A DNA stretch of 37,226 bases from assembly GCA_035498035.1 (NCBI GenBank), contig DATKAN010000007.1, forward strand, positions 1 to 37,226. The letters run 5' to 3'. Within the stretch, counting starts at the first letter, position 1. Each line of letters starts with the position of its first letter. The stretch is from Nitrospiria bacterium (lineage in GTDB: Bacteria > Nitrospirota > Nitrospiria > JACQBZ01). The translations under genes were made by a program, and so were the position numbers. Under the pieces are notes generated by a model, which did not search any database, was not told where the DNA came from, and saw only the letters and a list, made by a program, of their open reading frames with translations. Shown piece by piece: positions 1-32,919 of the stretch.

Positions 1-231
1 ATAGACAACATGGGTCCGGTCGGTGAGACCTCCCGAGATTCCGACCCGGATCAGCCGGTCGAGGCTTGCCAGAAAGGCGGCCAGCGTTTTACCCGAGCCG
101 GTGGGAGCGGCGATCAGCGTGTCGCGGCCTTCCACGATCGAAGGCCAGCCTAGACGCTGCGCCTCGGTCGGAACCGCAAACCGCTGCGCAAACCATTTGG
201 AGATAAGCGGATGAAACGATGGGGGAGACAT
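1..231 (-). CDS. lhr: Lhr-type DEAD/DEAH-box helicase, N-terminal fragment (runs off the left edge)
   Basis: The minus strand reads 77 codons from an ATG at 231 to the window edge without a stop. The product begins with an FHPLISKWF segment, then a Q-motif-like [10 protein letters not shown] (residues 21-30) and Walker A APTGSGKT (residues 42-49). This order is characteristic of Lhr (large helicase-related) superfamily-2 helicases, which unwind DNA/RNA hybrids 3'-5' and act in DNA repair. Only the first tenth or so of the protein is present, so the helicase core, winged helix and C-terminal domain cannot be checked. The ATP-dependent ligase gene lies just upstream in the same orientation, which fits a repair role. 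A perfect TATAAT lies 6 nt upstream of the ATG and there is no Shine-Dalgarno sequence, suggesting a leaderless mRNA. The ligase-associated DEXH helicase group is an alternative within the same superfamily. Confidence 0.85.
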
Positions 232-237
232 GGGACG

Positions 238-268
238 ATTATAACCCAGAGTGATAGCGGTCCTGCAA
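238..268 (-). promoter_or_regulatory. Putative promoter of the Lhr helicase gene (leaderless)
   Basis: On the minus strand a perfect -10 hexamer TATAAT occupies 243-238 and TTGCAG (-35-like, 4 of 6 matches) occupies 268-263, with a 19-nt spacer, slightly long. The ATG starts at 231, about where transcription should begin, so the message would have no 5' UTR. No Shine-Dalgarno sequence precedes the ATG, which agrees with this. Inferred from hexamers only. Confidence 0.45.
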
Positions 269-334
269 CTCGAATGGTGAAAAGGGGCTTCTTGTCGTTG
301 TTCAAATTTCCAAGCAAGGATTGGACTGTGGCCT

Positions 335-473
335 GAGCAGCGACCTTGGCTGCGGTCTGGGGACCCGACTCGGCAAAGGTCGCGGCCGGGTCATCGAGGC
401 CAATTTTGGGCGCTTCATCTTCGCAGAATTTAGCGGCCAAGCCATGGTCGGGTCAAAACGCAGCCGCCGAAGC
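335..473 (+). repeat. Dispersed intergenic repeat family 2, copy 1
   Basis: This segment of the 283-bp gap between the helicase and ligase genes resembles 30478-30611. Shared blocks include GAGCAGCGACCT, ACCCGNCTCGGC, CGCGGCC, AGCGGCCNAGCC, GGGTCAAAAC and CAGCCGCCG, in the same order, with an estimated 70-75% identity by eye. Short minus-strand reading frames here resemble the translation of copy 2, but the match jumps between frames, so it looks like a decayed or non-coding element rather than a gene. The rest of the gap (232-334, 474-514) holds nothing I can identify beyond the helicase promoter. Confidence 0.65.
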
Positions 474-514
474 AGCATAGGCCACAGGCCGATCGCAATC
501 AATCCCGGGGAAGG

Positions 515-2056
515 TTACTCCCGTTTCCTCCTAAAAATCTCGGCGACGGTCTGGATCGTGTCGGCCTCGGCGCCCGATTTGTCCGGCCGAAAACGTTTTA
601 CCCGGGCAAACCGGAGCGCCAGGCCGGCCGGATAGCGGGACGATTCCTGGATTTCGTTGAAGGCGACCTCGACCACCAGCTCCGGGCGAACATAGACCGC
701 CCAGTCATCCCGACTTGCCTCCAACGACAGAAGCTTTTCGGTTTGCCACTTCAGCATCTCGTCCGTGAGTCCCTTGAAGGTCTTTCCCAGCATGACAAAT
801 TGACCGCTTTCGGGGTCCCTGGCTCCGAGATGCAAATTCGAAAGCCAACCCTTGCGGCGGCCGCTCCCCCACTCCGCCGCGAGGATCACCAGATCCAGGG
901 TCTTGGCCGGCTTGAGCTTCAACCAATTAAGCCCCCGCTGACCGGCGGTATAGGGCGCGTCCAGGGCCTTGGCCATCGTCCCTTCATGCCCGACTTCCAA
1001 CGCGCGCCTTAAAAATCGCTCAGCCTCCGCGCGGTCTTTCGTCATTAAACTCTGGATGACTCTCTCGCTTGGGATCGTTTCGGTCAGGATCTTAAAGCGC
1101 CGACGATAGGGGAGGGTAAACAACGCGCCGTCGCCTTCACGATAGAGACAGTCGAAGTAAAAAGCGGCCAGTGGAATCTCCCGCCGCATCGCCTCGATAT
1201 TTTTGATCCGTCCGAACCGCCGCATCGTGACCTGAAAAGGGTGAGGCCGCCCATCGGGCCGGAGCGCGATCGCCTCCCCATCCAGAACGATCTCGCGTAC
1301 GAGCAGGGTCCGAGCCCATTCGACCAGCTCGGGCAGACGCTCTGTAACATCCTGAAGCCGCCGGGTGAAAATCCGGACTTCATCCCCTTCCTTGTGAACC
1401 TGGATTCGTGCGCCGTCCAGCTTGAATTCGAAGGCGGCGTCGCCCAGCCGCTCCAAGGCCTCGCCGACATCCTCCGCGGTATCGGCCAGCATCGGGGCTA
1501 CCGGGGTAAAGATCCGGAATCCCGTGCGGGACAGGGCGGGTGAACCCTCTTCCAAAGCGGCGCGGGCAATCGTTCCTATATTGCCGGTGAACATCATCGC
1601 CCGCCGAACTTCCGAAGAGGGAAGACCGGAGGCTTTGGCGATCGCTTCCAGGAGAAGGCCTTCCAGCGCCCCCTGTCTCAGTTCGCCCATTAAAAGATGC
1701 GAAAGGAAGCGCCGTTCGTCGATACGGGCCCGCTGGAAGAGCGACCGCAGCCTCGCAATCCTACGGTCACTCGACCCGGGGCCCTGATCGGAGGCGATCT
1801 GACTCATGACCTGATCGACCTCCGCCAACGTCAACGAAGATTCCGCCTGGGGCGCCCCAACCGTTGCGGATTCGATCGTGCTCCAACCGACGCCGATTTT
1901 TCCCTGCGTAAGACGGCCGCAGAGATACAGGGCCGCCAATTCTGTTTCTCGGCCCCGCGTCTGCTTGAGGAAGTCGGCCAGAAGCGCGATCTTCTCATTT
2001 TTCTTTGTGGCGGATTGAACCCGGGTAACCCGATCGACTAAATGAACCAGTTGCAT
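515..2056 (-). CDS. lig: ATP-dependent DNA ligase (archaeal/LigB type)
   Basis: This 513-residue ligase seals DNA nicks through an enzyme-AMP intermediate. Residues 1-175 form the helical DNA-binding domain (DNA_ligase_A_N). The adenylation domain carries motif I KLDGAR with the AMP-accepting Lys212, motif III-like FTRRLQDVT (230-238), and VLDGEA (257-262). The C-terminal third is the OB-fold, with a lysine-rich WLKLKP segment and a WGSGRRKG segment. Length and motif order match the archaeal-type enzymes also found in some bacteria in addition to NAD-dependent LigA. It lacks the polymerase and nuclease modules of LigD, and no Ku gene is visible, so non-homologous end joining is not indicated here. 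Neighbouring Lhr on the same strand supports a repair function. The ATG at 2056 is preceded by an AGGAC Shine-Dalgarno-like stretch. Confidence 0.93.
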   Translation of the reverse strand: MQLVHLVDRVTRVQSATKKNEKIALLADFLKQTRGRETELAALYLCGRLTQGKIGVGWSTIESATVGAPQAESSLTLAEVDQVMSQIASDQGPGSSDRRIARLRSLFQRARIDERRFLSHLLMGELRQGALEGLLLEAIAKASGLPSSEVRRAMMFTGNIGTIARAALEEGSPALSRTGFRIFTPVAPMLADTAEDVGEALERLGDAAFEFKLDGARIQVHKEGDEVRIFTRRLQDVTERLPELVEWARTLLVREIVLDGEAIALRPDGRPHPFQVTMRRFGRIKNIEAMRREIPLAAFYFDCLYREGDGALFTLPYRRRFKILTETIPSERVIQSLMTKDRAEAERFLRRALEVGHEGTMAKALDAPYTAGQRGLNWLKLKPAKTLDLVILAAEWGSGRRKGWLSNLHLGARDPESGQFVMLGKTFKGLTDEMLKWQTEKLLSLEASRDDWAVYVRPELVVEVAFNEIQESSRYPAGLALRFARVKRFRPDKSGAEADTIQTVAEIFRRKRE

Positions 2057-2090
2057 ACCGTCCTACCCGCGAAATAATGTAGATCGGCGA

Positions 2091-2260
2091 TACCCAGCGA
2101 GCCAAGCGAGCGAGAGGGGGAGGCTGAAAATTCCCCGCCAGGGGAATTCTCCCTATTTACTTCCCTCGGCGGGGAATTTTGGAGAATCGAAAATGGTAAA
2201 TCGAAAATAGGGAAACCGGCGAACTCAAACCCATAACGTATGGGGGCGACGCAAGGCCCT
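2091..2260 (+). repeat. Dispersed intergenic repeat family 1, copy A (interrupted)
   Basis: The head block 2091-2125 (tacccagcgag, aagcgagcg, agggggaggct) and the tail block 2239-2260 (gggggcgacgc, then ggccct) match copies at 20847-21003, 25321-25432 (inverted) and 29273-29337. Here head and tail are separated by about 110 bp containing a strong inverted repeat and lower-GC filler. The element lies between the divergently transcribed ligase and membrane-fusion genes and fills most of that 305-bp gap. No ORF is credible. It resembles a short non-autonomous palindromic element, but its family is not recognised. Confidence 0.6.
2127..2180. repeat. Inverted repeat with two competing hairpins
   Basis: AAAATTCCCCGCC at 2127-2139 is perfectly complementary to GGCGGGGAATTTT at 2168-2180 (13-bp stem, 28-nt loop). 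The left arm can instead pair locally: AATTCCCC (2129-2136) with GGGGAATT (2141-2148), across a 4-nt loop. The two structures are mutually exclusive. There is no T-tract typical of an intrinsic terminator. It lies inside repeat family 1 copy A, between divergent promoters. Confidence 0.75.
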
Positions 2261-2294
2261 GCCTTAGACCATATTACTACACCTTTCCGACGAT

Positions 2295-2324
2295 TTGCCA
2301 CAAGGCCGTTCAATGCCTTATGAT
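2295..2324 (+). promoter_or_regulatory. Putative promoter of the ABC export operon
   Basis: TTGCCA (2295-2300), an 18-nt spacer and TATGAT (2319-2324) form a plausible sigma-70 promoter ending 37 nt before the ATG of the membrane-fusion gene. No operator-like palindrome was noticed over it. Confidence 0.5.
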
Positions 2325-2361
2325 AGGGATTCCGTTTTGTTTAATTCTGAAGTGATAATCG

Positions 2362-3591
2362 ATGGAAACCCAAATCATGGATCTCTCCCAGCTAAAGATC
2401 GACCGGAAGGATTTCGGAGAACGGCCGGGTCCCCGGAGGAAGGGGGGGAAGACCGTATGGATTGCGATCACGGCCGTTCTGGTCATCGCATCAGTCATCC
2501 TATACCGTTTTCTTGCCGTCACGCCCGCGACAGTCGAGGTAACGACTGTTGCGGCCATGGATCCGGGCCTTCCGACCCCTATACTGAACGCCACGGGTTA
2601 TGCCGTCGCCCAGCGGCGCGCGGCCGTCGCATCCAAAGGAACAGGTCGTCTGGTGGAATTGAATGTGCGGGAGGGCGACCGTGTTAAAAAAGGCGAGGTG
2701 ATCGGCCGGCTGGAGAGCGCCGACATGGCCGCGGCGCTCGCCCGGGCCCGGGCGAACGGAACGGTGGCCGAGGCCGCGCTGGACGAGGCCAAGGCCGAAT
2801 TGAACGAAGCGACCCTGGCTTACGAACGGAAAAAGAAGCTGATCACAGACGGGATGATCTCCCAGGCCGATCTGGAAGTGGCCGAGGGCCGTTATCACCG
2901 CGCCGAAGCCTCCGTCGGCTCGGCCGAGGCCGGCATCAAGGCGGCCGAGGCGGCTGTGCGGTCGGCCGAGGTGGATCTGGAAAACACGATTATCCGTGCG
3001 CCCTTCGACGGAACGGTCCTGACCAAGAACGCCGACGTGGGCGAGGTGGTCGCCCCGTTCGGCTCGGCCGCATCGGCCAAGGCGGCCGTCGTCACGATGG
3101 CCGATATGGACTCCATCCAGATCGAGGCGGACGTCTCGGAATCGAACCTCGAGAAAGTCCGCACGGGTCAACGGTGCGAAATCACGCTGGACGCCTACCC
3201 GGACACAACGTACGAGGGGGTGGTCGAGGCGATCGTGCCCACAGTCGACCGGGCCAAGGCCACCGTCCTGGCCAAGATACGGTTCGTGAATCGGGACGAT
3301 CGCGTGCTGCCCGAGATGAGCTCGCGGGTCGCCTTTCTTTCCGAGCCGTCCGGCCGCGCGGATCAAAAACCTCTTATCGCGATTCCGACGGCGGCCGTTA
3401 TTACGCGCGGCGAACGAAGGATTGTTTTTGTCGTCCGGGGCGAGCGGGCCGAAGAAAAAACGGTCGAGCCTGGGGGACCGATCGGAAGCCGGATCGAGAT
3501 CAAAAGCGGCCTCCGGCCCGGCGAGCGCGTCGTGACGAATCCGCCCGAAGGGCTGCGCAACGGGGACCGAATACGGATCAAAACCCCCTAA
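2362..3591 (+). CDS. HlyD/MacA-type periplasmic adaptor (membrane-fusion protein) of an ABC exporter
   Basis: The 409-residue protein has a short basic cytoplasmic N-terminus, one transmembrane anchor (about residues 31-51), and then a periplasmic part. Half-lipoyl motifs are visible at NATGYAVAQRRAAVASK (about 75-91) and in the RAPFDGTV segment. They flank a long Ala/Glu-rich coiled-coil hairpin (about 125-205), followed by beta-barrel and membrane-proximal domains. This is the layout of adaptors that link an inner-membrane ABC pump to the outer membrane. Three ABC genes follow directly, so it is probably the adaptor of that pump. No outer-membrane TolC-like gene is in the window. The start at 2362 has a weak GAAGTG ribosome site; an in-frame ATG at 2377 is possible. 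The cargo is unknown: MacAB-like pumps export peptides, macrolides or lipoproteins. Confidence 0.88.
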   Translation: METQIMDLSQLKIDRKDFGERPGPRRKGGKTVWIAITAVLVIASVILYRFLAVTPATVEVTTVAAMDPGLPTPILNATGYAVAQRRAAVASKGTGRLVELNVREGDRVKKGEVIGRLESADMAAALARARANGTVAEAALDEAKAELNEATLAYERKKKLITDGMISQADLEVAEGRYHRAEASVGSAEAGIKAAEAAVRSAEVDLENTIIRAPFDGTVLTKNADVGEVVAPFGSAASAKAAVVTMADMDSIQIEADVSESNLEKVRTGQRCEITLDAYPDTTYEGVVEAIVPTVDRAKATVLAKIRFVNRDDRVLPEMSSRVAFLSEPSGRADQKPLIAIPTAAVITRGERRIVFVVRGERAEEKTVEPGGPIGSRIEIKSGLRPGERVVTNPPEGLRNGDRIRIKTP

Positions 3592-3601
3592 GGATGCCTC
3601 C

Positions 3602-4276
3602 GTGGCCGAACCCCTCATCGAGATCAAGGGAATCTCAAAATCCTACCGTCGCGATAGTCTCGCGATTCCCGTCCTTGAGAATATCTCGCTGACGGTGGGT
3701 GCGGGGGAATTTCTCGCGCTCATGGGCCCCTCCGGCTCCGGCAAGACCACGCTTCTGAACCTGATCGCCGGCATCGACCGCCCCGACCGCGGATCCATCC
3801 GGATCGGCGGGATAGAAATCGGCTCGTTGGGCGAGTCCGACCTGGCCCGGTGGCGGTCCCGCCATATCGGGTTCATCTTCCAGCTCTATAATCTGATCCC
3901 GGTGCTTACGGCCGTCGAGAATGTGGAGCTGCCCCTGCTTCTGACCCCGCTCTCAAAGCGGGAGCGACGGGAGCATGCCGAGCTCGCTCTGAACGTGGTC
4001 GGGCTTTCGGACCGGATGCGTCACTATCCCCGGCAGCTCTCCGGCGGGCAGGAACAGCGGGTCGGCATCGCCCGCGCGATCGTGACCGACCCCACGCTGC
4101 TGGTGGCCGATGAACCGACGGGCGACCTGGACAAGGCCTCGGCCGCTGAAGTCCTGGATCTTCTCGGGCGGCTGAACACCGGCTTCTCAAAAACGATCGT
4201 GATGGTCACGCACGATCCTCGGGCGGCCGAGGGGGCCCGGACCGTTCGCCATCTGGACAAGGGAATATTGGTCTAG
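3602..4276 (+). CDS. ABC transporter ATP-binding protein (LolD/MacB class)
   Basis: This 224-residue nucleotide-binding protein carries Walker A GPSGSGKTT (42-50), Q-loop Gln94, signature LSGGQ (146-150), Walker B LLVADEP (166-172) and H-loop His204. It belongs to the class that serves FtsX-like mechanotransmission permeases rather than classical importers. The GTG start at 3602 is 11 nt after the adaptor stop and has an AAGGA ribosome site at 3590-3594. It would energise the two permeases encoded immediately downstream. One oddity: the residue after the signature is Glu (LSGGQEQR, where LSGGQQQR is usual), a tolerated variation in this family. Confidence 0.93.
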   Translation: MAEPLIEIKGISKSYRRDSLAIPVLENISLTVGAGEFLALMGPSGSGKTTLLNLIAGIDRPDRGSIRIGGIEIGSLGESDLARWRSRHIGFIFQLYNLIPVLTAVENVELPLLLTPLSKRERREHAELALNVVGLSDRMRHYPRQLSGGQEQRVGIARAIVTDPTLLVADEPTGDLDKASAAEVLDLLGRLNTGFSKTIVMVTHDPRAAEGARTVRHLDKGILV

Positions 4277-4280
4277 GAAC

Positions 4281-5453
4281 GTGAACCTATTAAACCTCAT
4301 CCTTAGAAACCTGATGCGCCACAAGCTTCGGTCGCTCCTGACCATCGTCGGGATCGCGATCGCGATCCTGGCCTTCGGCATGATCCGGACCGTCATCGCG
4401 ATATGGTATTCCGGCATCGAGGCCTCCTCCCCGAACCGCTTGATCATCCGGAATTCCGTATCGCTGATCTTTCCCCTCCCGATCGCCTACCGGGAGGCGA
4501 TCCTTGCCGTCCCGGGGGTCTCCGAGGTTACGTACGCCCAATGGTTCGGGGGGATCTATATCGACGAGAAGCACTCCCAGTTTCCCCAATTGGCGGTAGA
4601 CGCGGCCACCTGGTTCTCGGTCGTGCCTGAAAACCGGGTCTCGGAGGCTGAGATGGCCGCTTTCCTGAGGGAGCGGAACGCCGCCATTGTGGGGGTTCAA
4701 CTGGTGCGGCGGTTCGGCTGGAAGGTCGGGGATGTCGTCCGGATGCGGAGCATGATCTTCCCGGGGGACTGGGACTTCGTGATCCGGGGAATCTATACCG
4801 GGGCGAAAAAAACGACGGATGAAACCTCCTTTTTTTTCCATTGGCGGTACCTTGACGAACAGGTGCGGCGACTGCAGCCCTGGAGCGCGGGAAATGTCGG
4901 GTGGTATGCGGTGAAGATCGCCGACCCCGATCGGGCGGCCTCCATCAGCGAGGCGATCGATCGCCGCTTTAAAAACTCGCTGGCCGAGACCCGCACCGAG
5001 ACGGAACAGGCTTTCGTGCAGGGCTTCATCTCGATGAGCGACACGATCCTGATCGCCCTGCGGATCGTTTCGATCGTGATCGTCGGAGTGATCCTCGCGG
5101 TGCTGTCCAACACGATGGCGATGACGGCCCGCGAACGTCTTTCGGAATACGCGCTGCTCAAGACGCTCGGCTTCAGGGCGCGTCACCTTGTTCTGTTGAT
5201 CGCGGGAGAGTCCCTCCTGATCGCGCTGATCGGGGGTGCCGCCGGAATTGCCCTGATCGGTCCGACGGTCGATGGGTTCGGCGCCGTGATGATGAGAACG
5301 GTGGGGGCGATGTTTCCGGTCCTCGGGGTCAGTGCGGCCACCCGAACGGTCAGTCTACTCATGGCCCTCGGCGTCGGCCTAGCCGCCGCGATCTTTCCGG
5401 CCTGGCGGGCGGCGACGTTGAGGATCGTGACCGGGCTTCGGCGAATCGGGTAA
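4281..5453 (+). CDS. FtsX-like ABC transporter permease (first of two)
   Basis: The 390-residue protein has one N-terminal transmembrane segment (about 17-37), a large extracytoplasmic domain of about 220 residues (MacB_PCD-like), and three C-terminal segments (around 262-285, 315-340 and 355-380). This is the FtsX/MacB/LolC-E permease topology. Its N-terminus, NLILRNLMRHKLRSLLT, is typical of the family. The GTG start lies 4 nt after the ATPase stop; the nearest AGGA is only 2 nt before the GTG, so expression probably depends on translational coupling. Together with the next permease it would form a heterodimer powered by the upstream ATPase. The substrate cannot be deduced from sequence. 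Confidence 0.88.
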   Translation: MNLLNLILRNLMRHKLRSLLTIVGIAIAILAFGMIRTVIAIWYSGIEASSPNRLIIRNSVSLIFPLPIAYREAILAVPGVSEVTYAQWFGGIYIDEKHSQFPQLAVDAATWFSVVPENRVSEAEMAAFLRERNAAIVGVQLVRRFGWKVGDVVRMRSMIFPGDWDFVIRGIYTGAKKTTDETSFFFHWRYLDEQVRRLQPWSAGNVGWYAVKIADPDRAASISEAIDRRFKNSLAETRTETEQAFVQGFISMSDTILIALRIVSIVIVGVILAVLSNTMAMTARERLSEYALLKTLGFRARHLVLLIAGESLLIALIGGAAGIALIGPTVDGFGAVMMRTVGAMFPVLGVSAATRTVSLLMALGVGLAAAIFPAWRAATLRIVTGLRRIG

Positions 5454-6719: not shown

Positions 6720-6763
6720 TTGACAAGAGATTTCCATGGCTGGTATTCTACCAACCGGTAGGT
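6720..6763 (+). promoter_or_regulatory. Promoter with TetR-type operator for the glycosylation operon
   Basis: A consensus TTGACA (6720-6725), an 18-nt spacer and an extended -10 (TGG then TATTCT, 6741-6749) are followed and partly overlapped by TACCAACCGGTAGGT (6749-6763). That 15-bp core is identical to the one in front of the TetR gene (9564-9578) and is palindromic apart from one mismatched pair. A repressor bound here would cover the -10 and start site. The TetR regulator encoded downstream at 9585 is the obvious candidate. Predicted from sequence only. Confidence 0.75.
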
Positions 6764-6785
6764 CCCCAACGCGGTGGGAATGACG

Positions 6786-6804
6786 CCGGGCCGGAACGGC
6801 CCGG
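6786..6804 (+). other. GC-rich hairpin in the leader of the glycosylation operon
   Basis: CCGGGCC (6786-6792) pairs perfectly with GGCCCGG (6798-6804) across a 5-nt loop. It lies in the roughly 95-nt untranslated leader between the operator and the ATG at 6851. There is no following T-run, so an intrinsic terminator is unlikely. It could affect mRNA stability or translation. Confidence 0.45.
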
Positions 6805-6850
6805 GTTGTATCCCTCATCAAAGATCGATTTAACACCGTTCGCGATAACG

Positions 6851-7618
6851 ATGGAAAATAAATCCTTTAACGCCGCAGAGCCTCCGGTATACTCTCTTGT
6901 GATTCCGATTTATAACGAAGAGGCGAACCTTCCTTTGCTGGTTCCCAGCCTCCCGCCTGTCATGGAAAAGCTGCGGGAGCCTTTTGAAATTATTCTCGTC
7001 GACGACGGGAGCACCGATGGGAGCTATCAACGGATGGTCCGTCTCTCCGAAACCTACCCGCAGCTGGTTTTGATCAAATTCCGCAGTCGCCGCGGACAGA
7101 CGGCGGCTTTTGATGCCGGCTTCCGCCTCGCCCGGGGGAAGGTCGTGATCACCATGGACGGCGATCTCCAGTACGATCCGGCCGACATCCTGAAAATGAT
7201 TCCCTGTCTTGAATCGGCCGATGTGGTCTGCGGCTGGCGGGAGCAACGGGCGGACACGCTGGTCCGACGCGCCTCCTCCGTGATCGCAAACGCCATCCGA
7301 AACTGGTTGAGTCAGGAGCAGATCCTTGATGTGGGCTGCTCGCTTCGGGTCTTCAAACGGGAAAGCCTGAAATCGTTAAAACTCTACAATGGGATGCACC
7401 GGTTCCTTCCGACCCTTCTGAAGCTGGATGGATTCAAGGTGGTGGAGGTGCCGGTGCAGCATTTCCCCCGGCGGTACGGAAAGTCGAAATACAACATCCG
7501 CAATCGGGCCATCCGGTCGTTCGTCGATCTATTGGCCGTCCGGTGGATGAAGCACCGCTGGCTTTCGTACGAGATCGAGGAGGTCAGACAATGCGGTGGG
7601 ACTTCTGGATCGCCTTAG
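6851..7618 (+). CDS. GT2 family glycosyltransferase, DPM1/ArnC-like, soluble form
   Basis: This 255-residue GT-A enzyme probably transfers a sugar from a nucleotide sugar to a polyprenyl phosphate. Visible motifs are IPIYNEE (18-24), VDDGSTDGS (50-58), the metal-binding DGDLQ (103-107) and the late RYGKSKY segment typical of dolichol-phosphate-mannose-like synthases. It lacks the two C-terminal membrane helices of ArnC, so it must bind the membrane peripherally or through its partners. The ATG at 6851 is chosen over a TTG at 6806, because homology begins shortly after it; neither has a good ribosome site. The gene overlaps the next by 28 bp and is co-transcribed with LAB_N and ArnT-like genes. 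Its lipid-linked product would be the donor for the ArnT-like enzyme. Confidence 0.88.
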   Translation: MENKSFNAAEPPVYSLVIPIYNEEANLPLLVPSLPPVMEKLREPFEIILVDDGSTDGSYQRMVRLSETYPQLVLIKFRSRRGQTAAFDAGFRLARGKVVITMDGDLQYDPADILKMIPCLESADVVCGWREQRADTLVRRASSVIANAIRNWLSQEQILDVGCSLRVFKRESLKSLKLYNGMHRFLPTLLKLDGFKVVEVPVQHFPRRYGKSKYNIRNRAIRSFVDLLAVRWMKHRWLSYEIEEVRQCGGTSGSP

Positions 7619-7854
7619 GGTTGGTGGCCCAGGCACTTTTTTTCAGTCGATTCCTCATCCAGTGGATGGTCTCGGAACATCGCGGCATGAGCGTCATCCC
7701 CCCGGCCTTCTGGTATCTAAGCCTGGGAGGAAGCTTCCTGCTCCTCGCCTATGCCGTGCACATCAAGGACCCCATCTTTATTCTGGGACAGGCCACGGGC
7801 TCGGTTGTGTATATCCGGAACCTCGTGCTGATCGCCCGGAATAACGCCACCTGA
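7591..7854 (+). CDS. LAB_N (lipid A biosynthesis N-terminal) domain membrane protein
   Basis: The 87-residue protein is almost entirely hydrophobic, with about three transmembrane helices. The FSRFLIQWMVSEH segment and the later PxxFWYLSLGGS motif are characteristic of the LAB_N family (PF07578). These proteins commonly sit beside polyprenyl-phosphate glycosyltransferases, and their biochemical role is not firmly established; a flippase or scaffold role in lipid-linked sugar handling is possible. The ATG at 7591 has a strong GAGGAGGT ribosome site and overlaps the end of the glycosyltransferase gene by 28 bp, indicating coupled translation. A longer in-frame start at 7543 lies deep inside the previous gene and is less likely. 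Confidence 0.85.
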   Translation: MRWDFWIALGLVAQALFFSRFLIQWMVSEHRGMSVIPPAFWYLSLGGSFLLLAYAVHIKDPIFILGQATGSVVYIRNLVLIARNNAT

Positions 7855-7858
7855 CCTA

Positions 7859-9496
7859 ATGTCTCCCTGGCCGATCGGAATCGCGGTCCTCTCCGCCTTT
7901 CTCCTTTTTTTCCCGCCCGGGGTCGAGCGACCCCCCATGTTTATGGAATATTTCTACCTGGAATCGGCGCGCGAGATGCTGGATCACGGGGACTGGATCA
8001 CCCCGATTTTCAACGAGACGAACCGCTTCGATAAACCGATCCTGTTTTACTGGATGGTGATGCTCGCCTTCAAAGTCCTGGGGACGGGCCTCGGGGCCGG
8101 GAGGCTCGTCTCGGCCGTTATGGCTTTGGGCGTCATCGGGCTGACCTACGGATTGGGGAAATCTCTCTATGGTATCCCCGCGGCCCGATGGGCCGTCCTC
8201 GTCCTGATTACGACGCCGCTGTTCGTCCTCTTCGCGCGGACGGCCATCCCGGACCTCACCCTCACTTTCTTCCTCACCCTGGCCTTGTTCGCCTTTCAAC
8301 GCGGGGTCGCGTCCTCCCCGCCCCGGCGGAGTTGGCTTTACCTTTTTTACGCCGCCGCGGCCCTGGCCACCCTGACGAAAGGCCCCCTGGCCATCCTGCT
8401 CCTGGGCCTCGTGATCGCGGGATTCTTCCTGGCCTGGAAGGAGCGGCCCTCCCTCCGGGCGCTCGCACCCGGGTCCGGAATCGGGATTTTTCTGGCCATC
8501 TTCCTTCCCTGGTTCGTCCTGATCGTTATGAAGCACGGTCAGGCTTATCTGGACTATATATGGAGTATCCAGCAGAAAGCAGCCGTGGGCGAGGCGCGAT
8601 ATGCCTGGCACTTTTACCTTCGGCATTTCTTCTGGGATTTTTTGCCCTGGAGTCCCCTTGTGGCGGCCGGGTTGGGTATCTTCTGGAGACACCGGCGCGA
8701 TCTGACCGCGGAAAAACAGCTTCCGGTTCCCTGGTTGATCTTCATCCTCGTCTTCTTCTCGCTCGTCAGTCTGAAAGCCATCCGTTACCTTCTGCCCCTA
8801 ACGCCGGCCTTCGCGCTTCTGGCCGGATGGTTCCTGGCCCGGGCCACGGGACCTTCCGGGACGTTTGAACCAAAGGCCCTTCGACTTGTCGCTTGGACCA
8901 CCGCCGGGCTCGGCCTTCTGGGCGGCGGTTTGCTCGCGGCACTGCTGACGTCCGGGGGGGAATGGACGGATCACGTTTCGGGCGCCGCATTTATCTGGCC
9001 CGTGTTGCTGGGGATCAACGCGGCCGCCGGGCTCGTCGCCGCGGCCCGCCAATCAACCCACGGACAGACCTTCGGAATTGCCGGCGTGGCGGCCGTGGGA
9101 CTGCTGGCCTACTTCAGCCTCGTTCCCGGATTGAGCGGACCATCGCCGGCCGCCGCTCTGGCGGGACGGATCAATTACGAACGTCCGCCTGGAACGTCGT
9201 TGGGCGTCTACCGTATGGAGGTCAATGAATGGGTCTATGAAGTCGGCCCGCCGGTCGTGTCCTTGACGGGCCCGCAAGATCTCGAACGTTTTCAGGCGGC
9301 CCACCCTTCCGCGTTGATTGTGATGACCCCGGCAGACTATGAAAAGGCCGGGGCCAAACGGACGGTGGTGGCGAAGGCCGCCCGCCCCAAACGACTCCGC
9401 TGGAAGGCGGACGCCTCCGGACCCCTCTTAAGCCGGCTGGAACAGGACCGGGAAGATTTTTATTTGACCGCCGGTCCGGTTCCAGTCGATCGCTGA
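7859..9496 (+). CDS. ArnT-like glycosyltransferase (PMT/GT83 superfamily)
   Basis: The 545-residue polytopic inner-membrane protein has about a dozen predicted helices. The first periplasmic loop carries MEYFYLESAREMLDHGDWI and then FDKPILFYW, which corresponds to the donor-binding region of ArnT and related lipid A or protein glycosyltransferases. A periplasmic C-terminal domain of about 120 residues follows the last helix. Such enzymes move a sugar from a polyprenyl-phosphate carrier to lipid A or another envelope acceptor on the outer face of the inner membrane. The ATG is 4 nt after the LAB_N stop, so the three genes form one operon under the operator at 6749. Whether the sugar is aminoarabinose is unknown: none of the ArnA, ArnB or ArnD genes is in the window. 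Confidence 0.87.
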   Translation: MSPWPIGIAVLSAFLLFFPPGVERPPMFMEYFYLESAREMLDHGDWITPIFNETNRFDKPILFYWMVMLAFKVLGTGLGAGRLVSAVMALGVIGLTYGLGKSLYGIPAARWAVLVLITTPLFVLFARTAIPDLTLTFFLTLALFAFQRGVASSPPRRSWLYLFYAAAALATLTKGPLAILLLGLVIAGFFLAWKERPSLRALAPGSGIGIFLAIFLPWFVLIVMKHGQAYLDYIWSIQQKAAVGEARYAWHFYLRHFFWDFLPWSPLVAAGLGIFWRHRRDLTAEKQLPVPWLIFILVFFSLVSLKAIRYLLPLTPAFALLAGWFLARATGPSGTFEPKALRLVAWTTAGLGLLGGGLLAALLTSGGEWTDHVSGAAFIWPVLLGINAAAGLVAAARQSTHGQTFGIAGVAAVGLLAYFSLVPGLSGPSPAAALAGRINYERPPGTSLGVYRMEVNEWVYEVGPPVVSLTGPQDLERFQAAHPSALIVMTPADYEKAGAKRTVVAKAARPKRLRWKADASGPLLSRLEQDREDFYLTAGPVPVDR

Positions 9497-9523
9497 AATC
9501 CGTTGCGCCTCCGGCCGCTCCCC

Positions 9524-9580
9524 TTGACAAGGCGCGTAGCGATCTGATAGAGTGGCATAAACATACCAACCGGTAGGTAT
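9524..9580 (+). promoter_or_regulatory. Promoter and operator of the TetR operon (autoregulation site)
   Basis: TTGACA (9524-9529), an 18-nt spacer and TAGAGT (9548-9553) make a sigma-70-like promoter. Just downstream lies the 18-bp near-palindrome ATACCAACCGGTAGGTAT (9563-9580), with a single mismatched pair. It covers the probable start site and includes the GGTAGG that would serve as ribosome site for the ATG at 9585. The core is identical to the one at 6749-6763. TetR-family repressors commonly bind such sites in front of their own genes. Confidence 0.8.
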
Positions 9581-9584
9581 TTAA

Positions 9585-10190
9585 ATGCGGACGCCCCAGA
9601 TGCAATCCCGCGCCCGGGAAAAACTTCTCCACGCGGCCCAGAGGCTGATGCTGGCCAAAGGCTACCCCGCGACCACGATCGACGAGATCTGCACGGCGTC
9701 CCGGTTGACGAAAGGGAGCTTCTTTCATTATTTTGAAAGCAAGGAGGACCTGGGAAAGGCGCTCCTGGATCGCTACGCCTCCTCCGGCCAGCGGACCGGA
9801 TGGAACGCTATCCCGATGAACAAACGCGATCCCCTGGAGCGGGTGTATGGCTACCTGGACTCCTCCGCCCGGCTCTATCAAGGCCGGTCCGGCCGGAACG
9901 GCTGTTTGTTGGGACACTTCGCCCAGGAGCTCTCGGATACGCATCCGGCGATCCGATCGTTGTGCGCCGAGCGCTTCGACGAGTGGGCCGCGATGTTTAA
10001 ACGGGCCCTGGACGAGGCCAAGATAAAACATCGGCCCAAAGCGGCCCTGGACACCCAGGGCCTTGCCGAGCATTTCATCGCCGTGCTGGAGGGCTCGCTC
10101 ATCCTGGGCAAGGCGCACCGGGATATGAGAATCGTCGGGAAAAATCTCCGCCGATTTAAGCAATATTTGAAACTGGTTTTTCAAAAATAA
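9585..10190 (+). CDS. TetR/AcrR family transcriptional regulator
   Basis: The 201-residue protein has an N-terminal TetR DNA-binding domain with a helix-turn-helix at about 31-51 (TTIDEICTASRLTKGSFFHYF), followed by an all-helical ligand and dimer domain that includes an RNGCLLGHFAQEL segment seen in AcuR/NemR-like regulators. It probably represses both its own operon and the upstream glycosylation operon, since both promoters carry the same near-palindrome. The ligand is unknown. Cysteines lie in the HTH (EICTAS) and in the ligand domain (NGCLLG and SLCAER), and reactive-electrophile sensing is conceivable because a pirin and a quinone oxidoreductase follow. The ATG is 4 nt after the operator. 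Three more genes follow at 33-41 nt spacing. Confidence 0.92.
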   Translation: MRTPQMQSRAREKLLHAAQRLMLAKGYPATTIDEICTASRLTKGSFFHYFESKEDLGKALLDRYASSGQRTGWNAIPMNKRDPLERVYGYLDSSARLYQGRSGRNGCLLGHFAQELSDTHPAIRSLCAERFDEWAAMFKRALDEAKIKHRPKAALDTQGLAEHFIAVLEGSLILGKAHRDMRIVGKNLRRFKQYLKLVFQK

Positions 10191-10223: not shown

Positions 10224-11291
10224 ATGACATCCGTACTCGAATGGATCTCCCAACATAAATCGAACGGCGGCCTTGAGACCGCCGAAAGGCTTCCTCAGGA
10301 GCCGTCTCCCGTTTTGGCTGACCCCCTGATGGACGCCTACTCGCGGGCGGTCGTCGGTGCGGCCGAATCGGTCAGTCCATCGGTGGTCAATATCGAGGTG
10401 CATCAAACGCCCAAGGCCGGACAACTGATCGATCCCCGCCGTCCCCGAGAGGCCCGGGGCACCGGTTCCGGTTTCCTCTTTACACAGGACGGCCTGATCC
10501 TGACGAACAGCCACGTGGTGCATCGCGCGGCCGAAATCGAAGTAATGCTTTCGGACGGCCGGCGATTTGTGGCCGACGTTGTGGGCGACGATCCCGGAAC
10601 GGATCTGGCCGTCATCCGGATCTCGGCCCCCAATCTGGTGCCCACCCGTCTCGGCGATTCCAAAACAATTCGGCCGGGCCAATTGGCGATCGCGATCGGC
10701 AATCCGTACGGCTTTCAGACCACCGTCACGGCCGGCGTCGTCAGCGCGCTCGGCCGATCGCTGCGGTCCCGATCCGGACGGCTGATCGACGACGTGATCC
10801 AAACGGACGCCGCGCTGAACCCGGGGAACTCGGGCGGTCCGCTCGTGAACTCGCGCGGCGAGGTGATCGGGGTGAACACGGCCGTGATCATGGGCGCCCA
10901 AGGGATCTGCTTCGCGATCGGAATCGACACGGCGAAGTTTATCGCGGCCCGTCTGATCAGGGACGGCCGGGTCCGCCGGGGCTACATCGGCGTGGCCGGC
11001 CAGAACGTCCCGTTGCACCGGCGTCTCGTGCGGTTTCACAACCTCCCGGTCGAAAACGGCGTGCTCGTGGTCTCGATCGAGCCGGCAAGCCCCGCCCGCC
11101 GGGCCGGTCTGATCGAGGGCGACCTGATCATCGGATACGATGGGCAGCCGATTGCCGGGATCGATGATCTGCACAAGGTCCTGACCGAAAAACAGGTCGG
11201 CGCCACGGCACCCTTGACGATTCTCCGTCGGACCGAAATGATCTCCCTCGACATCATTCCGGAAGAATCCAAATCCGCGCCGGAATCATGA
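10224..11291 (+). CDS. HtrA/DegP-like serine protease with PDZ domain, no signal peptide
   Basis: The 355-residue S1C protease has catalytic His97 (TNSHVV), Asp127 (GTDLAV) and Ser203 (GNSGGPL), and a single C-terminal PDZ domain (about 250-345). Members of this family degrade misfolded envelope proteins. Unusually, the N-terminus (MTSVLEWISQHKSNGG) has neither a signal peptide nor a transmembrane anchor, so as annotated the enzyme would be cytoplasmic. A strong GGAAGGAGG ribosome site precedes the ATG, supporting this start. It lies 33 nt after the TetR gene and 41 nt before pirin, so it is probably in the TetR-controlled operon. No substrate can be inferred. Confidence 0.9.
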   Translation: MTSVLEWISQHKSNGGLETAERLPQEPSPVLADPLMDAYSRAVVGAAESVSPSVVNIEVHQTPKAGQLIDPRRPREARGTGSGFLFTQDGLILTNSHVVHRAAEIEVMLSDGRRFVADVVGDDPGTDLAVIRISAPNLVPTRLGDSKTIRPGQLAIAIGNPYGFQTTVTAGVVSALGRSLRSRSGRLIDDVIQTDAALNPGNSGGPLVNSRGEVIGVNTAVIMGAQGICFAIGIDTAKFIAARLIRDGRVRRGYIGVAGQNVPLHRRLVRFHNLPVENGVLVVSIEPASPARRAGLIEGDLIIGYDGQPIAGIDDLHKVLTEKQVGATAPLTILRRTEMISLDIIPEESKSAPES

Positions 11292-11332: not shown

Positions 11333-12196
11333 ATGAAATCATTGCCTCGCAAAATAGAGACGATTATTGAGCCGGAAGCGGTCGTGGAAGGCGCGGGGGT
11401 CCGGCTTAAACGAAGCATTGCGACACGAAGGCTGGACTATCTCGATCCATTCCTGTTGCTGGACCACTTTGCGTCCACCAATCCGCGTGATTACGAGGCC
11501 GGGTTCCCGCTGCATCCCCACCGAGGGATCGAAACGGTGACCTACATCCTGAAGGGCGAGGTCCGTCACAAGGATACCCTCGGAAACGCCGGGAGCATCG
11601 GCGCCGGTGACGTTCAGTGGATGACCGCCGGACGCGGCATCATGCACGAGGAGATGCCGCAGGCGCGTCCGGAAGGGATCGCCGGATTCCAGCTCTGGGT
11701 CAATCTGCCGGCGAAGCTCAAGATGACCCCGCCGCGCTACCAGGATATCCGGGCCCATGAGATTCCTGAAATCAAGCGCGACGACGGGGCGAGGATCCGG
11801 GTGATCACCGGGGCCGTGGAGGGGGCTCGGGGTCCCGTGACCGAAATCGCCGCCAATCCCATCTACCTGGATGTGTGTGTTCCCCCTCGCGCCTCGTTCG
11901 TCCAGCCGATCAAACGGGGCCATACCGCATTTGTTTACGTTTTCGAAGGCGAGGCCCAATTCGCCGGCGATGAGAAAGAAGCGGGAACAATGATCTCGAA
12001 CCCGAAACTGGTTGTGCTGGGCGACGGCGATGAACTGCGAGTGACGACGGGAGAGGCCCCGGTTCGCTTTTTGTTGGTTTCGGGAAAACCGTTGCACGAG
12101 CCGATCGCGCGGTATGGCCCCTTCGTGATGAACACCCAAGATGAGATCAAGCAAACCCTTTACGAACTCAGAATGGGAACCTTCGTCACGACCTGA
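11333..12196 (+). CDS. Pirin family protein
   Basis: This 287-residue bicupin has the pirin metal site in its N-terminal cupin: His61 and His63 in HPHRGIETVTY, and His105 and Glu107 in GIMHEEM, matching the iron ligands known for pirins. Bacterial pirins include quercetin 2,3-dioxygenases (YhhW-like) and regulators of metabolic enzymes; the sequence alone does not decide. The ATG has a consensus AAAGGAGGT ribosome site. Co-transcription with TetR, HtrA and a quinone oxidoreductase suggests a role in redox or electrophile stress. Confidence 0.92.
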   Translation: MKSLPRKIETIIEPEAVVEGAGVRLKRSIATRRLDYLDPFLLLDHFASTNPRDYEAGFPLHPHRGIETVTYILKGEVRHKDTLGNAGSIGAGDVQWMTAGRGIMHEEMPQARPEGIAGFQLWVNLPAKLKMTPPRYQDIRAHEIPEIKRDDGARIRVITGAVEGARGPVTEIAANPIYLDVCVPPRASFVQPIKRGHTAFVYVFEGEAQFAGDEKEAGTMISNPKLVVLGDGDELRVTTGEAPVRFLLVSGKPLHEPIARYGPFVMNTQDEIKQTLYELRMGTFVTT

Positions 12197-12230: not shown

Positions 12231-13208
12231 ATGGCGCACGCGATCTTGATCGACCGCTACGGCGGTCCGGATGTCCTACAGTGGAAGGAGATTCCGGTTT
12301 CCTCTCCTGGCCCCGGCGAAACGCTCGTGCGGCAGACCGCCGTCGGTGTTAATTTCATCGATGTTTACCACCGACGGGGTCTCTATCCGCTCCCTTCCTT
12401 GCCCGCGGGGATCGGGTCGGAAGCCGCCGGGCTCGTGGAGGCGGTCGGACCGGGGGTGACCGAGGTGGCGGTGGGCGATCGGGTGGCCTATGCCGGGGGG
12501 CCGACGGGTGCCTATTGTGAAGCGCGGGTCCTTCCCGCGCACCGGCTGGTGAAGCTGCCGGACGGCGTTTCCGACCCGCAGGCCGCGGCGATGATGCTGA
12601 AGGGCATGACGGCCGAGTACCTCCTCCGTAGGGCGTTCTCCGTCAAACCGGGTGACGCCATCCTCTTCCATGCGGCCGCCGGGGGCGTAGGGACGATCGC
12701 CTGTCAGTGGGCCAAACAGCTCGGTGCGACCGTGATCGGCACGGTCGGAACTCGGAAGAAGGCGGCCATGGCATCCTCCCGCGGATGCGATCATGTGATC
12801 GTGACGGGTGAAGAAGACTTCGTCGTACGCGTGCGCGAGATCACCCGAGGCGAAGGGGTCCCTGTCGTCTACGACTCGGTCGGAAAAGACACCTTCATGC
12901 GCTCCCTGGACTGTTTGAGACCGCGGGGCATGCTGGTCAGCTTCGGACAATCCTCGGGGATGGTCCCTGCGCTGGACATCACGGTCCTGTCAGCCAAGGG
13001 GTCCCTGTTTCTCACCCGGCCCACGCTGATGCATTACACCGCCAGGCGAGAGGAGTTATTGTCGTGCGCCTCGGCGCTGTTCGATGTGGTTCAACGCGGC
13101 GCTGTGAAGATCGAGATCGGCCAAACCTATTCCCTTCGGGAGGCGGGCCGGGCTCACGCCGATCTCGAAGCCCGGAAAACGACCGGATCGACCGTGCTGC
13201 TTCCATAA
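12231..13208 (+). CDS. NADPH:quinone oxidoreductase (zinc-independent MDR family)
   Basis: The 325-residue medium-chain reductase opens with MAHAILIDRYGGPDVLQW, typical of the zeta-crystallin/QorA group. It carries the AAGGVGTIACQWAKQLGA nucleotide-binding loop (about 146-163) and lacks the zinc-ligand pattern of alcohol dehydrogenases. Such enzymes reduce quinones or enones with NADPH. The ATG at 12231 has a GAGGAG ribosome site and follows the pirin stop by 34 nt; a longer in-frame start at 12141 would lie inside pirin. It appears to be the last gene of the TetR operon. The next gene is convergent, and the 87-bp gap shows no clear terminator. Confidence 0.92.
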   Translation: MAHAILIDRYGGPDVLQWKEIPVSSPGPGETLVRQTAVGVNFIDVYHRRGLYPLPSLPAGIGSEAAGLVEAVGPGVTEVAVGDRVAYAGGPTGAYCEARVLPAHRLVKLPDGVSDPQAAAMMLKGMTAEYLLRRAFSVKPGDAILFHAAAGGVGTIACQWAKQLGATVIGTVGTRKKAAMASSRGCDHVIVTGEEDFVVRVREITRGEGVPVVYDSVGKDTFMRSLDCLRPRGMLVSFGQSSGMVPALDITVLSAKGSLFLTRPTLMHYTARREELLSCASALFDVVQRGAVKIEIGQTYSLREAGRAHADLEARKTTGSTVLLP

Positions 13209-29350: not shown

Positions 29351-30460
29351 TTACTGAACCCTCAGCGTCGTCCAGGTCTGTCCGCCGTCGGTCGTTTTGA
29401 TGAACTGTCGATTGAATAGCGCGGCGTAAAAGGTGGTATGGTCGATATCGGTCTTCATGTAATCCGCCACCGCGAAGGCCGTGAGGCCGGGTTGAAGGAT
29501 TTCCAAAGGCGTCGAGCAGTCCAATAGGATACACCAAAAGCCCCCCCGATCCACGCTCCGAACGATCCCGTCGGAACCCGCGTAGAGGGTCAGGTCCGTC
29601 GTGTTGGGACCGATCAACGGCACCACAAAAAAGATCGTGAACTTGAATTTGGGATCGTAGGAAAGGTTAAAAGTGGTCCCCGAATCCGTGCTCTTGTAAA
29701 TCCCGCTGCCGCCCGAACCAGCCTCCCCCCCGCTCGTCCCCACGTACAGCTCGGACTCCAGTTGCGGATTCACGGCCAGAGAGACAATTTCCTCCTGCGT
29801 CAGCGCCTTCAGGCCGGGGGTGGCCTCGTTCCATTGGGCCTCGGTGGTTCCGCGACGGAAAAATCCGCCTCCATCCGTTCCGATATACAGATGGCTGCCG
29901 GTCGTATCTTGGATAAGGTTGGGATAAATAGCGATCGCGGTGACGGCCGGGTTGGGTAGGCTTTGATTGATTTGGGTGTAGGTGGACCCCCCATCAATGC
30001 TCCCCCAGACCCCGCTCGTCTGGCTGGCCACATAAATTCCCCGGCAGGGGGGTGAGTTGGCCGGACAGGAGTTACGGTCGATGACGATCCCGCGTATGTC
30101 CGTGATCGGGGTTGCCCCGACCGGAGCCGACCAGGTCTCTCCGGAATCAAAGCTTGAAAAAATTCCCCCGTTTTCCGTGCCGGCATAGATACGGGACGGC
30201 GTGAACCAGTCGATCGCCAGGGAGGTGACCTTGAGGTCGATCAGCCCGTTGTTGATCGGCGCCCAGGTACTGCCCCCGTCGGTGCTCTTGACGACGCCGC
30301 CGCCGTCGGTAGCCACATAGAGCGTGGTCGGCGTGACGGGATCAACCGCGATCGCCTTGAGGTCGAAGGTGCTCGAAATTTCGTTGGAGGGGGAACCCCA
30401 GCAGCCGGACAGGAGCGGGACGAGGATTAAAATCCGGAGAAGTCGCCGGCATGGCGACAC
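29351..30460 (-). CDS. Asp-box (BNR) seven-bladed beta-propeller lipoprotein
   Basis: From a GTG at 30460 the product has 369 residues: a short basic start, a hydrophobic stretch and lipobox LLSGC, so it is an exported lipoprotein. The mature part contains repeated Asp-box motifs (STDGGSTW, SFDSGETW, SIDGGSTY, STDSGTTF, SVDRGGFW, TTDGGQTW) plus one degenerate unit (GTTEAQW), consistent with seven blades. This resembles sialidase or photosystem-II-assembly-factor (Ycf48-like) propellers, but no sialidase catalytic residues are recognisable. The frame is open to an ATG at 30682 that overlaps the upstream stop (TAATG). That would add 74 residues encoded by repeat family 2 and bury the signal peptide, so the GTG is preferred despite a weak ribosome site. 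Confidence 0.8.
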   Translation of the reverse strand: MSPCRRLLRILILVPLLSGCWGSPSNEISSTFDLKAIAVDPVTPTTLYVATDGGGVVKSTDGGSTWAPINNGLIDLKVTSLAIDWFTPSRIYAGTENGGIFSSFDSGETWSAPVGATPITDIRGIVIDRNSCPANSPPCRGIYVASQTSGVWGSIDGGSTYTQINQSLPNPAVTAIAIYPNLIQDTTGSHLYIGTDGGGFFRRGTTEAQWNEATPGLKALTQEEIVSLAVNPQLESELYVGTSGGEAGSGGSGIYKSTDSGTTFNLSYDPKFKFTIFFVVPLIGPNTTDLTLYAGSDGIVRSVDRGGFWCILLDCSTPLEILQPGLTAFAVADYMKTDIDHTTFYAALFNRQFIKTTDGGQTWTTLRVQ

Positions 30461-30477
30461 TTGTTCAGCACCGGCCC

Positions 30478-30611
30478 GAGCAGCGACCTCGGCTGAGGTT
30501 TGGGCACCCGGCTCGGCGAAGGACGCGGCCCGAAGGGTCAATTTTCCGCTAAGCCCCTTCGGAAAATTGAGCGGCCGAGCCTTAGCCGGGTCAAAACTCA
30601 GCCGCCGGAGC
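30478..30611 (+). repeat. Dispersed intergenic repeat family 2, copy 2, with hairpin
   Basis: The segment aligns with 335-473 (same ordered blocks). It additionally carries a perfect 10-bp inverted repeat: CAATTTTCCG (30539-30548) and CGGAAAATTG (30560-30569) with an 11-nt loop. It lies directly upstream of the GTG of the Asp-box lipoprotein, in the 221-bp gap after the YVTN gene; the rest of that gap (30612-30681) shows nothing recognisable. Confidence 0.65.
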
Positions 30612-30681
30612 CGCGAAGGCCGCGCTGAACAATGTCGTCGATGTCCGATTCCGGAAGGGCTGAGAGAATCAATGGAGGCCA

Positions 30682-31752
30682 TTACATCAAGGGGATTCGG
30701 TAATGCTGCACCACCCGTTGTCCCGCGGTATCGATCACCGAGAGATTCTCCTCGCCGTAATTCGTGAGGAAGACGTTCTTCCCGTCGGCCGAAAGGGCGA
30801 TGGACCGCGGCGACGTACCCGCGTCCAGGGTCTTCCGGACCGTCCCGGTGGCCGTGTCGATCAGAGAAAGGGTGCTGGAGTGTTGGTTTAATACATAGGC
30901 GGTCTTCCCGTCCGGCGTGAGGGCGATTTCCATCGGCCCCTCTCCCACCGGGATGGACCGGGTGACCTCAAAGCTCGTCAGGTCCACGACCGCGACGCTG
31001 TTCGCCCCGTCGTTGGCGACGTAGGCCCGCCTTCCGTCCGGCGTCACGGCGACGGCCATGGGCGCCTGGCCGACCTCGACCCGCCGGAGGATTTTATCCG
31101 ACACGGTATCGATCACGGCCATGTCGGTGAACCCGTGATCGACGACGTAGGCGAAGCGGCCGTCTGGCGAAAAGGCGATCCCGCAGGGGCGGCTGCCCAC
31201 CGGGATGGTCCGGACGACCCGATTGGAGGCCGTATCGATGATGGAGAGATCATCCGATCCGTGGTTGCTGACGTAGAGAAATTTCCCGGAAGGGGTCAGG
31301 GCCGCACGCATCGGATTGCGCCCGACCGGGATCGTCGCCGTCACCCGTTGCGCGGCGAGGTCGACGACCGAGACCGAATCGGAAAGATGATTGGCCACGT
31401 AGCCCTCCTTCCCGTCGGCCGAGATCGCCATGAAGATCGGGGCGCTCCCCACGGCCACATGGCTCACCGCCTGCCGGGACCGACGGTCCACCTGCAAGAG
31501 CATCCCCTCGCCCGCCTTGGCCCGGAGGAGATAGAGCTGCTGGTCCGACGGACCCGCCACCACGCGAAGCGGCTCCTGACGGATCGCGCTCCACATCGCC
31601 TCATCCTTGTCGGCATCCGGGCCCTTCAGCATCCAGTTCTCGGACGCGTATGGCTTCTTCGCCGAATCGGAAGTCGTGCCGCAGCCGGCCAGCCCTCCAA
31701 CCGCAACCGTCAGGATGACGAGACTTGAAAAGATCAATTCGCCCCTTTTCAT
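30682..31752 (-). CDS. YVTN-family seven-bladed beta-propeller lipoprotein (paralogue 1)
   Basis: From ATG 31752 the product has 356 residues, with a signal peptide and lipobox LAGC. It holds seven YVTN/NHL-like blades of about 42 residues, recognisable by repeating PxxxAxSPDGxxxYVxNxxxxxxSVIDT units. Such proteins are typically exported and of unknown role; some bind metals or interact with redox partners. It is a paralogue of the next gene, blade by blade. Besides the lipobox cysteine it has one Cys, in blade 4 (VGSRPCGIAF). The start at 31752 has a GGGGGA ribosome site; an upstream in-frame ATG at 31767 is possible. Confidence 0.87.
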   Translation of the reverse strand: MKRGELIFSSLVILTVAVGGLAGCGTTSDSAKKPYASENWMLKGPDADKDEAMWSAIRQEPLRVVAGPSDQQLYLLRAKAGEGMLLQVDRRSRQAVSHVAVGSAPIFMAISADGKEGYVANHLSDSVSVVDLAAQRVTATIPVGRNPMRAALTPSGKFLYVSNHGSDDLSIIDTASNRVVRTIPVGSRPCGIAFSPDGRFAYVVDHGFTDMAVIDTVSDKILRRVEVGQAPMAVAVTPDGRRAYVANDGANSVAVVDLTSFEVTRSIPVGEGPMEIALTPDGKTAYVLNQHSSTLSLIDTATGTVRKTLDAGTSPRSIALSADGKNVFLTNYGEENLSVIDTAGQRVVQHYRIPLM

Positions 31753-31776
31753 TTTTCTTTCCCCCATCGATTACGC

Positions 31777-32901: not shown

Positions 32902-32919
32902 GACGAATCCCACCATCAT

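Follow-up and report, generated by a model that had tools for sequence, protein, structure and literature searches.

A predicted TetR-family autorepressor of a Nitrospiria bacterium and its likely second target, a neighbouring envelope-sugar operon

TetR-family repressors and their operators

The closest described operators belong to TetR-type regulators of unrelated pathways. In Burkholderia cenocepacia, PaaR has the validated operators ACCGACCGGTCGGTT and ACCAACCGGTCGGTT and controls several operons through copies of this box (PMC2770484, PMC9493321). The TetR-family protein TTHB023 (PfmR) of Thermus thermophilus binds TACCGACCGGTYGG boxes with nanomolar affinity, two of them at its own promoter (PMC7022988). 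In Escherichia coli NemR, Cys106 reportedly suffices for the reactive chlorine response, with other cysteines proposed to respond to electrophiles (PMC8748444, PMC3739934). In a literature search at title and abstract level, no case emerged of a TetR regulator linking genes of the ArnT type with quinone-reductase genes.

The window considered here is the whole 37,226-nucleotide stretch of Nitrospiria DNA that was analysed. It contains a tetR-led operon that lies directly behind an operon for sugar transfer, and boxes of the PaaR/TTHB023 type, ACCNACCGGTNGGT by comparison with the published ones, are present at the promoters of both. Our reading, to which we give a probability of about 0.75, is that the regulator is an autorepressor that also controls the sugar operon, and that both are released jointly by a chemical signal.

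Genes of the two operons

The predicted genes of the two operons are as follows.

6851..7618, plus strand: family-2 glycosyltransferase, ArnC/PgfS-like (polyprenyl-phosphate sugar transferase type; Pfam PF00535, weak NCBIfam ArnC match)
7591..7854, plus strand: LAB_N small membrane protein (Pfam PF07578), overlapping the end of the glycosyltransferase gene
7859..9496, plus strand: ArnT/PMT-like (GT-C) membrane glycosyltransferase (PF13231/PF02366; NCBIfam ArnT model below cut-off)
9585..10190, plus strand: TetR regulator (TetR_N and TetR_C_13; NemR/YxaF-like), from Pfam, homologues, alignment and a structural model
10224..11291, plus strand: HtrA/DegS-like serine protease with a PDZ domain, 33 nt after tetR and adjoining it in the same-genus genome G001 too
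11333..12196, plus strand: pirin (cupin family; Pfam), kept in G001 and in G003 of the same family
12231..13208, plus strand: NADPH:quinone reductase, MDR family (QOR; NCBIfam NF008024 above cut-off)

Two further features of the window lie apart from these operons. The minus strand at 515-2056 encodes a DNA ligase of the ATP-dependent type, having N, M and C domains; such ligases are more usual in archaea and eukaryotes. Four adjacent minus-strand genes at 29351-36720 encode two YncE/lactonase-like beta-propellers, a Sortilin/BNR-like protein and a 1266-residue protein almost without Pfam match (weak Kelch); they are possibly a set of beta-propeller proteins.

Promoters and operators

The promoters and candidate operators of the two operons are given below.

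6720..6749, plus strand: promoter of the glycosyltransferase operon (consensus scan), TTGACA at 6720-6725, N18, TATTCT at 6744-6749, with TG before the -10
6750..6763, plus strand: candidate second operator, the core ACCAACCGGTAGGT directly adjoining the -10 and lacking the outer A/T arms; ranked second in the window by a matrix from outside orthologues
9524..9553, plus strand: tetR promoter (consensus scan), TTGACA at 9524-9529, N18, TAGAGT at 9548-9553; similar in orthologues
9563..9580, plus strand: primary operator, 18-bp dyad ATACCAACCGGTAGGTAT, downstream of the -10 and ahead of the start codon; identical 18-mer at the tetR orthologue of G008, a genome of another family

Both promoters are of the form TTGACA-N18-TANNNT with 10/12 consensus matches, and shuffles of the region give an expectation of ~0.1 equally good sites. 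The placement described in the sequence-only reading, over or just after the -10, can be refined: the operator core abuts TATTCT at 6750, and at tetR it begins 11 bp after TAGAGT, at 9565. In the leader predicted for the glycosyltransferase operon, a strong GC-rich hairpin (CCGGGCC-GGAAC-GGCCCGG) spans 6785-6815 and has no T-run; the fold z-score of this leader is about -2.1.

The sequence elements at the two sites, and their uniqueness, are directly seen. The 15-mer TACCAACCGGTAGGT lies at 6749-6763 and 9564-9578 with no third copy in the window, and an exact search of the 2.67-Mb genome assembly returns exactly 2 copies, as had been claimed for the window, against an expectation for both strands of the genome of 0.0046 (base composition) or 0.0007 (first-order Markov model). 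The degenerate core ACCNACCGGTNGGT was searched in the whole genome and falls at the same two places only, and the motif is not widespread at unrelated genes. One-mismatch sites occur at 20 further places in the genome, compared with 6 for a reversed control pattern; two of the 20 flank a TetR paralogue, and most lie within long ORFs (13 loci inspected).

The repeat had been described as a 15-bp near-palindrome. Its symmetry is real, but the dyad centres lie between 6756/6757 and between 9571/9572, half a base off the centre of the quoted 15-mer, and the symmetric core, ACCAACCGGTAGGT, is 14 bp long (6750-6763 and 9565-9578). At tetR the symmetry reaches 18 bp (9563-9580, with 16/18 positions symmetric), whereas the glycosyltransferase site has the 14-bp core only and has lost the outer A/T arms (CT...CC). 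The two operators are thus identical in their core and differ in their arms. The two copies match over exactly 15 bp and not one base further in either direction, and their flanks are otherwise unrelated; the sites are therefore not a duplicated promoter, and this origin is ruled out.

Conservation of the autoregulatory box

Orthologues of the regulator in six other genomes (79-80, 61, 56, 56, 54 and 52-54% identity) allow phylogenetic footprinting. In 6/6 of these outside orthologues, a box of the form ATACCAACYGGTNGGTWT precedes the regulator's own start codon and follows a TTGACA-like promoter, whose TTGACA-like element, with N17/18 spacing, stands at the corresponding place. There is some variation among the boxes: spacing is looser in G010, where the box centre is shifted by one base, and one half-site is degraded at tetR of G011. 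Conservation of this site is directly seen, and predicted autorepression through a box at the regulator's own promoter is well supported by the seven orthologues, including this one, in keeping with the earlier expectation that the protein binds before its own gene.

Genome G011 also has a second box (L073, C41, 6135-6148), located downstream of tetR and directly before an NmrA-like gene that is followed by an SDR gene. It provides a precedent among the orthologues for one regulator with more than one box, and suggests that reductases are the conserved target class.

A matrix was built from the six outside autoregulatory sites and the second G011 site, with the window genome excluded. It gives 30.1 bits for the tetR site, 18.4 bits for 6748-6765 and 12.0 bits for the third independent place in the window, while the best score in a simulated 2.67-Mb genome is 16.9 and none reaches 18.4. 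Because the second site ranks second by this matrix, has no equal in the random genome and shares its abutting -10/operator layout with the G011 tetR promoter, the same repressor very likely acts at 6750-6763. Its affinity there is predicted to be lower, since the outer arms are absent.

The specificity of these sites has to be considered together with a paralogue of the regulator. The window genome encodes, on another contig (L077, G000 C44), a TetR paralogue at about 41171-41806, with closely similar boxes at 41144 and 41827. The same type of box accompanies paralogues in other families of the class, and is therefore common to a wider TetR subgroup. This paralogue (G000 C44:41192, 35% identity) could bind at the second site in place of the regulator, or it could also bind one or both window boxes, in which case the regulon would be shared by two regulators. 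Such sharing would agree with the ACTAACCGGTCGGT and ACCGACTGGTCGGT boxes around the paralogue's own gene and with the documented cross-binding of Thermus TTHB023 and SbtR to overlapping boxes (PMC7022988), but we consider it unlikely: the paralogue's boxes have A or G with C at the inner bases where the window sites have A..A, the two proteins differ in their recognition helices, and both window cores have one and the same sequence, which is also that of the orthologue consensus. The shared regulon of the sequence-only reading is supported by the core match, its uniqueness, its promoter placement and its second matrix rank, but exclusive control by this regulator is uncertain, given the boxes of the paralogue.

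Neighbourhood in related genomes

In G001 the gene order is macB, tetR, htrA, pirin, an NmrA-like gene and QOR, with proteins 79-89% identical, and the glycosyltransferase/LAB_N/ArnT-like operon is absent between macB and tetR. In G003, htrA directly follows macB with no tetR between them. A G003 locus (L089, C4), from another genus, has DedA/rhodanese-like and SnoaL/NTF2-like genes (named by eye) separating htrA and pirin within 40-4353; past pirin, the contig edge carries a different TetR_C_13 fragment.

Homologues of the glycosyltransferase at 45-55% identity are present in many genomes of the phylum, and the order glycosyltransferase-LAB_N-ArnT is common elsewhere in it. Within the family, G001 to G004 have no glycosyltransferase homologue at E <= 1e-50, and ArnT-like proteins reach 34-36% identity at best. 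A search of genome contigs returned no close relatives of the ArnT-like protein. On these comparisons, the operon is a lineage-specific neighbour of tetR. The loci of homologous sugar operons inspected elsewhere show no good box and only scattered weak matches, with one single-mismatch box near an ArnT-like gene in G023. The proposed tie between envelope sugars and the redox and protease genes consequently does not stand as a conserved link, as G001 has no sugar operon there and no good box lies near the homologous operons inspected in other genomes. TetR control of the sugar operon is probably a local acquisition, not an old physiological link. No second genome with regulator and sugar operon side by side was found, a point against the main reading.

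These observations bear on two other accounts of the second site. The first is that regulation by this TetR protein is limited to its own gene and the operon behind it, with 6749-6763 a chance match or a relic that has no regulatory role. The missing outer arms, which count against joint control, would be expected in that case, as would a sister genome without a sugar operon beside tetR and the lack of a good box near sugar operons elsewhere; it is nevertheless very unlikely that an exact and unique 15-mer would come to lie against a promoter, at 2.8 kb from the regulator, by chance, and we regard this account as distinctly improbable. The second takes the repeat for a target-site duplication, or the scar of a recombination, made when the sugar operon inserted; the operon is indeed an insert relative to the sister genome and is flanked by the identical repeats. 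This is scarcely credible: the right-hand promoter and operator align with the sister tetR promoter and the left-hand ones do not, although after duplication at the operator the left copy would still carry the ancestral promoter; the repeat coincides exactly with an independently defined operator; and G001, which has no sugar operon, already has a tetR promoter matching the right-hand one.

Joint control by the regulator is accordingly preferred over these accounts. As to how it arose, we offer only tentatively, at rather less than even odds, that a conserved stress repressor captured an arriving envelope-sugar operon when a copy of the operator core formed on its promoter, such that glycan modification joined the electrophile/oxidant response in this genome only.

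The regulator and its putative signal

The regulator matches PF00440 and PF16925 above their Pfam cut-offs. Its model is all-helical (mean pLDDT 84) with TetR folds as best matches, and both sequence and fold place NemR and YxaF among its nearest solved relatives. Its best NCBIfam model is AcuR, at 91.3 bits; this lies far below the equivalog cut-off of 247, and the regulator is therefore not AcuR. No NemR model is present among the NCBIfam results for the protein, which resembles NemR without being assigned to it.

Cys107 aligns with NemR Cys106, at an overall identity to NemR of about 23%, and Cys107 and K176 are invariant in all eight aligned proteins; the NemR alignment ends before Lys175. 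With homology of only about 23% identity, retention of the NemR sensor cysteine suggests an electrophile or oxidant as the signal. A redox or electrophile response would fit the genes that follow tetR (QOR and pirin, an NmrA-like gene in G001, NmrA and SDR genes in G011).

Proposed joint control

Binding, repression, operon extents, the signal and joint induction are what we infer from these elements. A dimer of the regulator (9585-10190) would bind ATACCAACCGGTAGGTAT, between its own -10 and start codon, as an autorepressor, and binding there would hold down tetR-htrA-pirin-QOR. The same protein would bind the 14-bp core at 6750-6763, probably more weakly, and block RNA polymerase at the glycosyltransferase/LAB_N/ArnT-like promoter. 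Joint release of both operons would follow exposure to a reactive electrophile, quinone or oxidant, with Cys107 as its probable site of action by analogy with NemR; alternatively, the trigger could be a ligand in that pocket. TetR control of the second operon is likely, on sequence evidence from this one genome.

The phenomenon is ordinary regulation, in that a TetR autorepressor, using a box of known type, probably has a second target. The operator type is already known; the apparent new element is the lineage-specific envelope operon gained as a target. For one TetR orthologue group, the analysis provides a concrete proposal of a regulon of two operons, together with a definite operator consensus, ATACCAACYGGTNGGTWT. 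Should joint control be true, the locus would show cleanly, on a small scale, how a regulator acquires a target through the arrival of an operon next to it, with no duplication of the promoter.

Comparison with known systems

The PaaR operators are near-identical to the window box, a likeness at the level of the operator; PaaR differs in serving phenylacetate catabolism, and its boxes occupy the interval from -35 to -10, those here being placed just after the -10. TTHB023 differs in controlling fatty-acid genes and in its broader consensus. AcuR (acuR-acuI-dddL) is comparable in gene arrangement, as its TetR gene likewise leads an operon with an MDR-family reductase, but its operator, TAATAGAC-n6-GTCTATTA, is a different sequence from the window box (PMC3017554). 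YxaF, of the YxaF/LmrA type of Bacillus, is a solved relative of the window regulator. NemR of E. coli (nemR-nemA-gloA) controls an electrophile/quinone reductase, and its sensor cysteine aligns with Cys107 here; it differs in its low identity, and the predicted targets in the window are htrA, pirin, QOR and the sugar operon.
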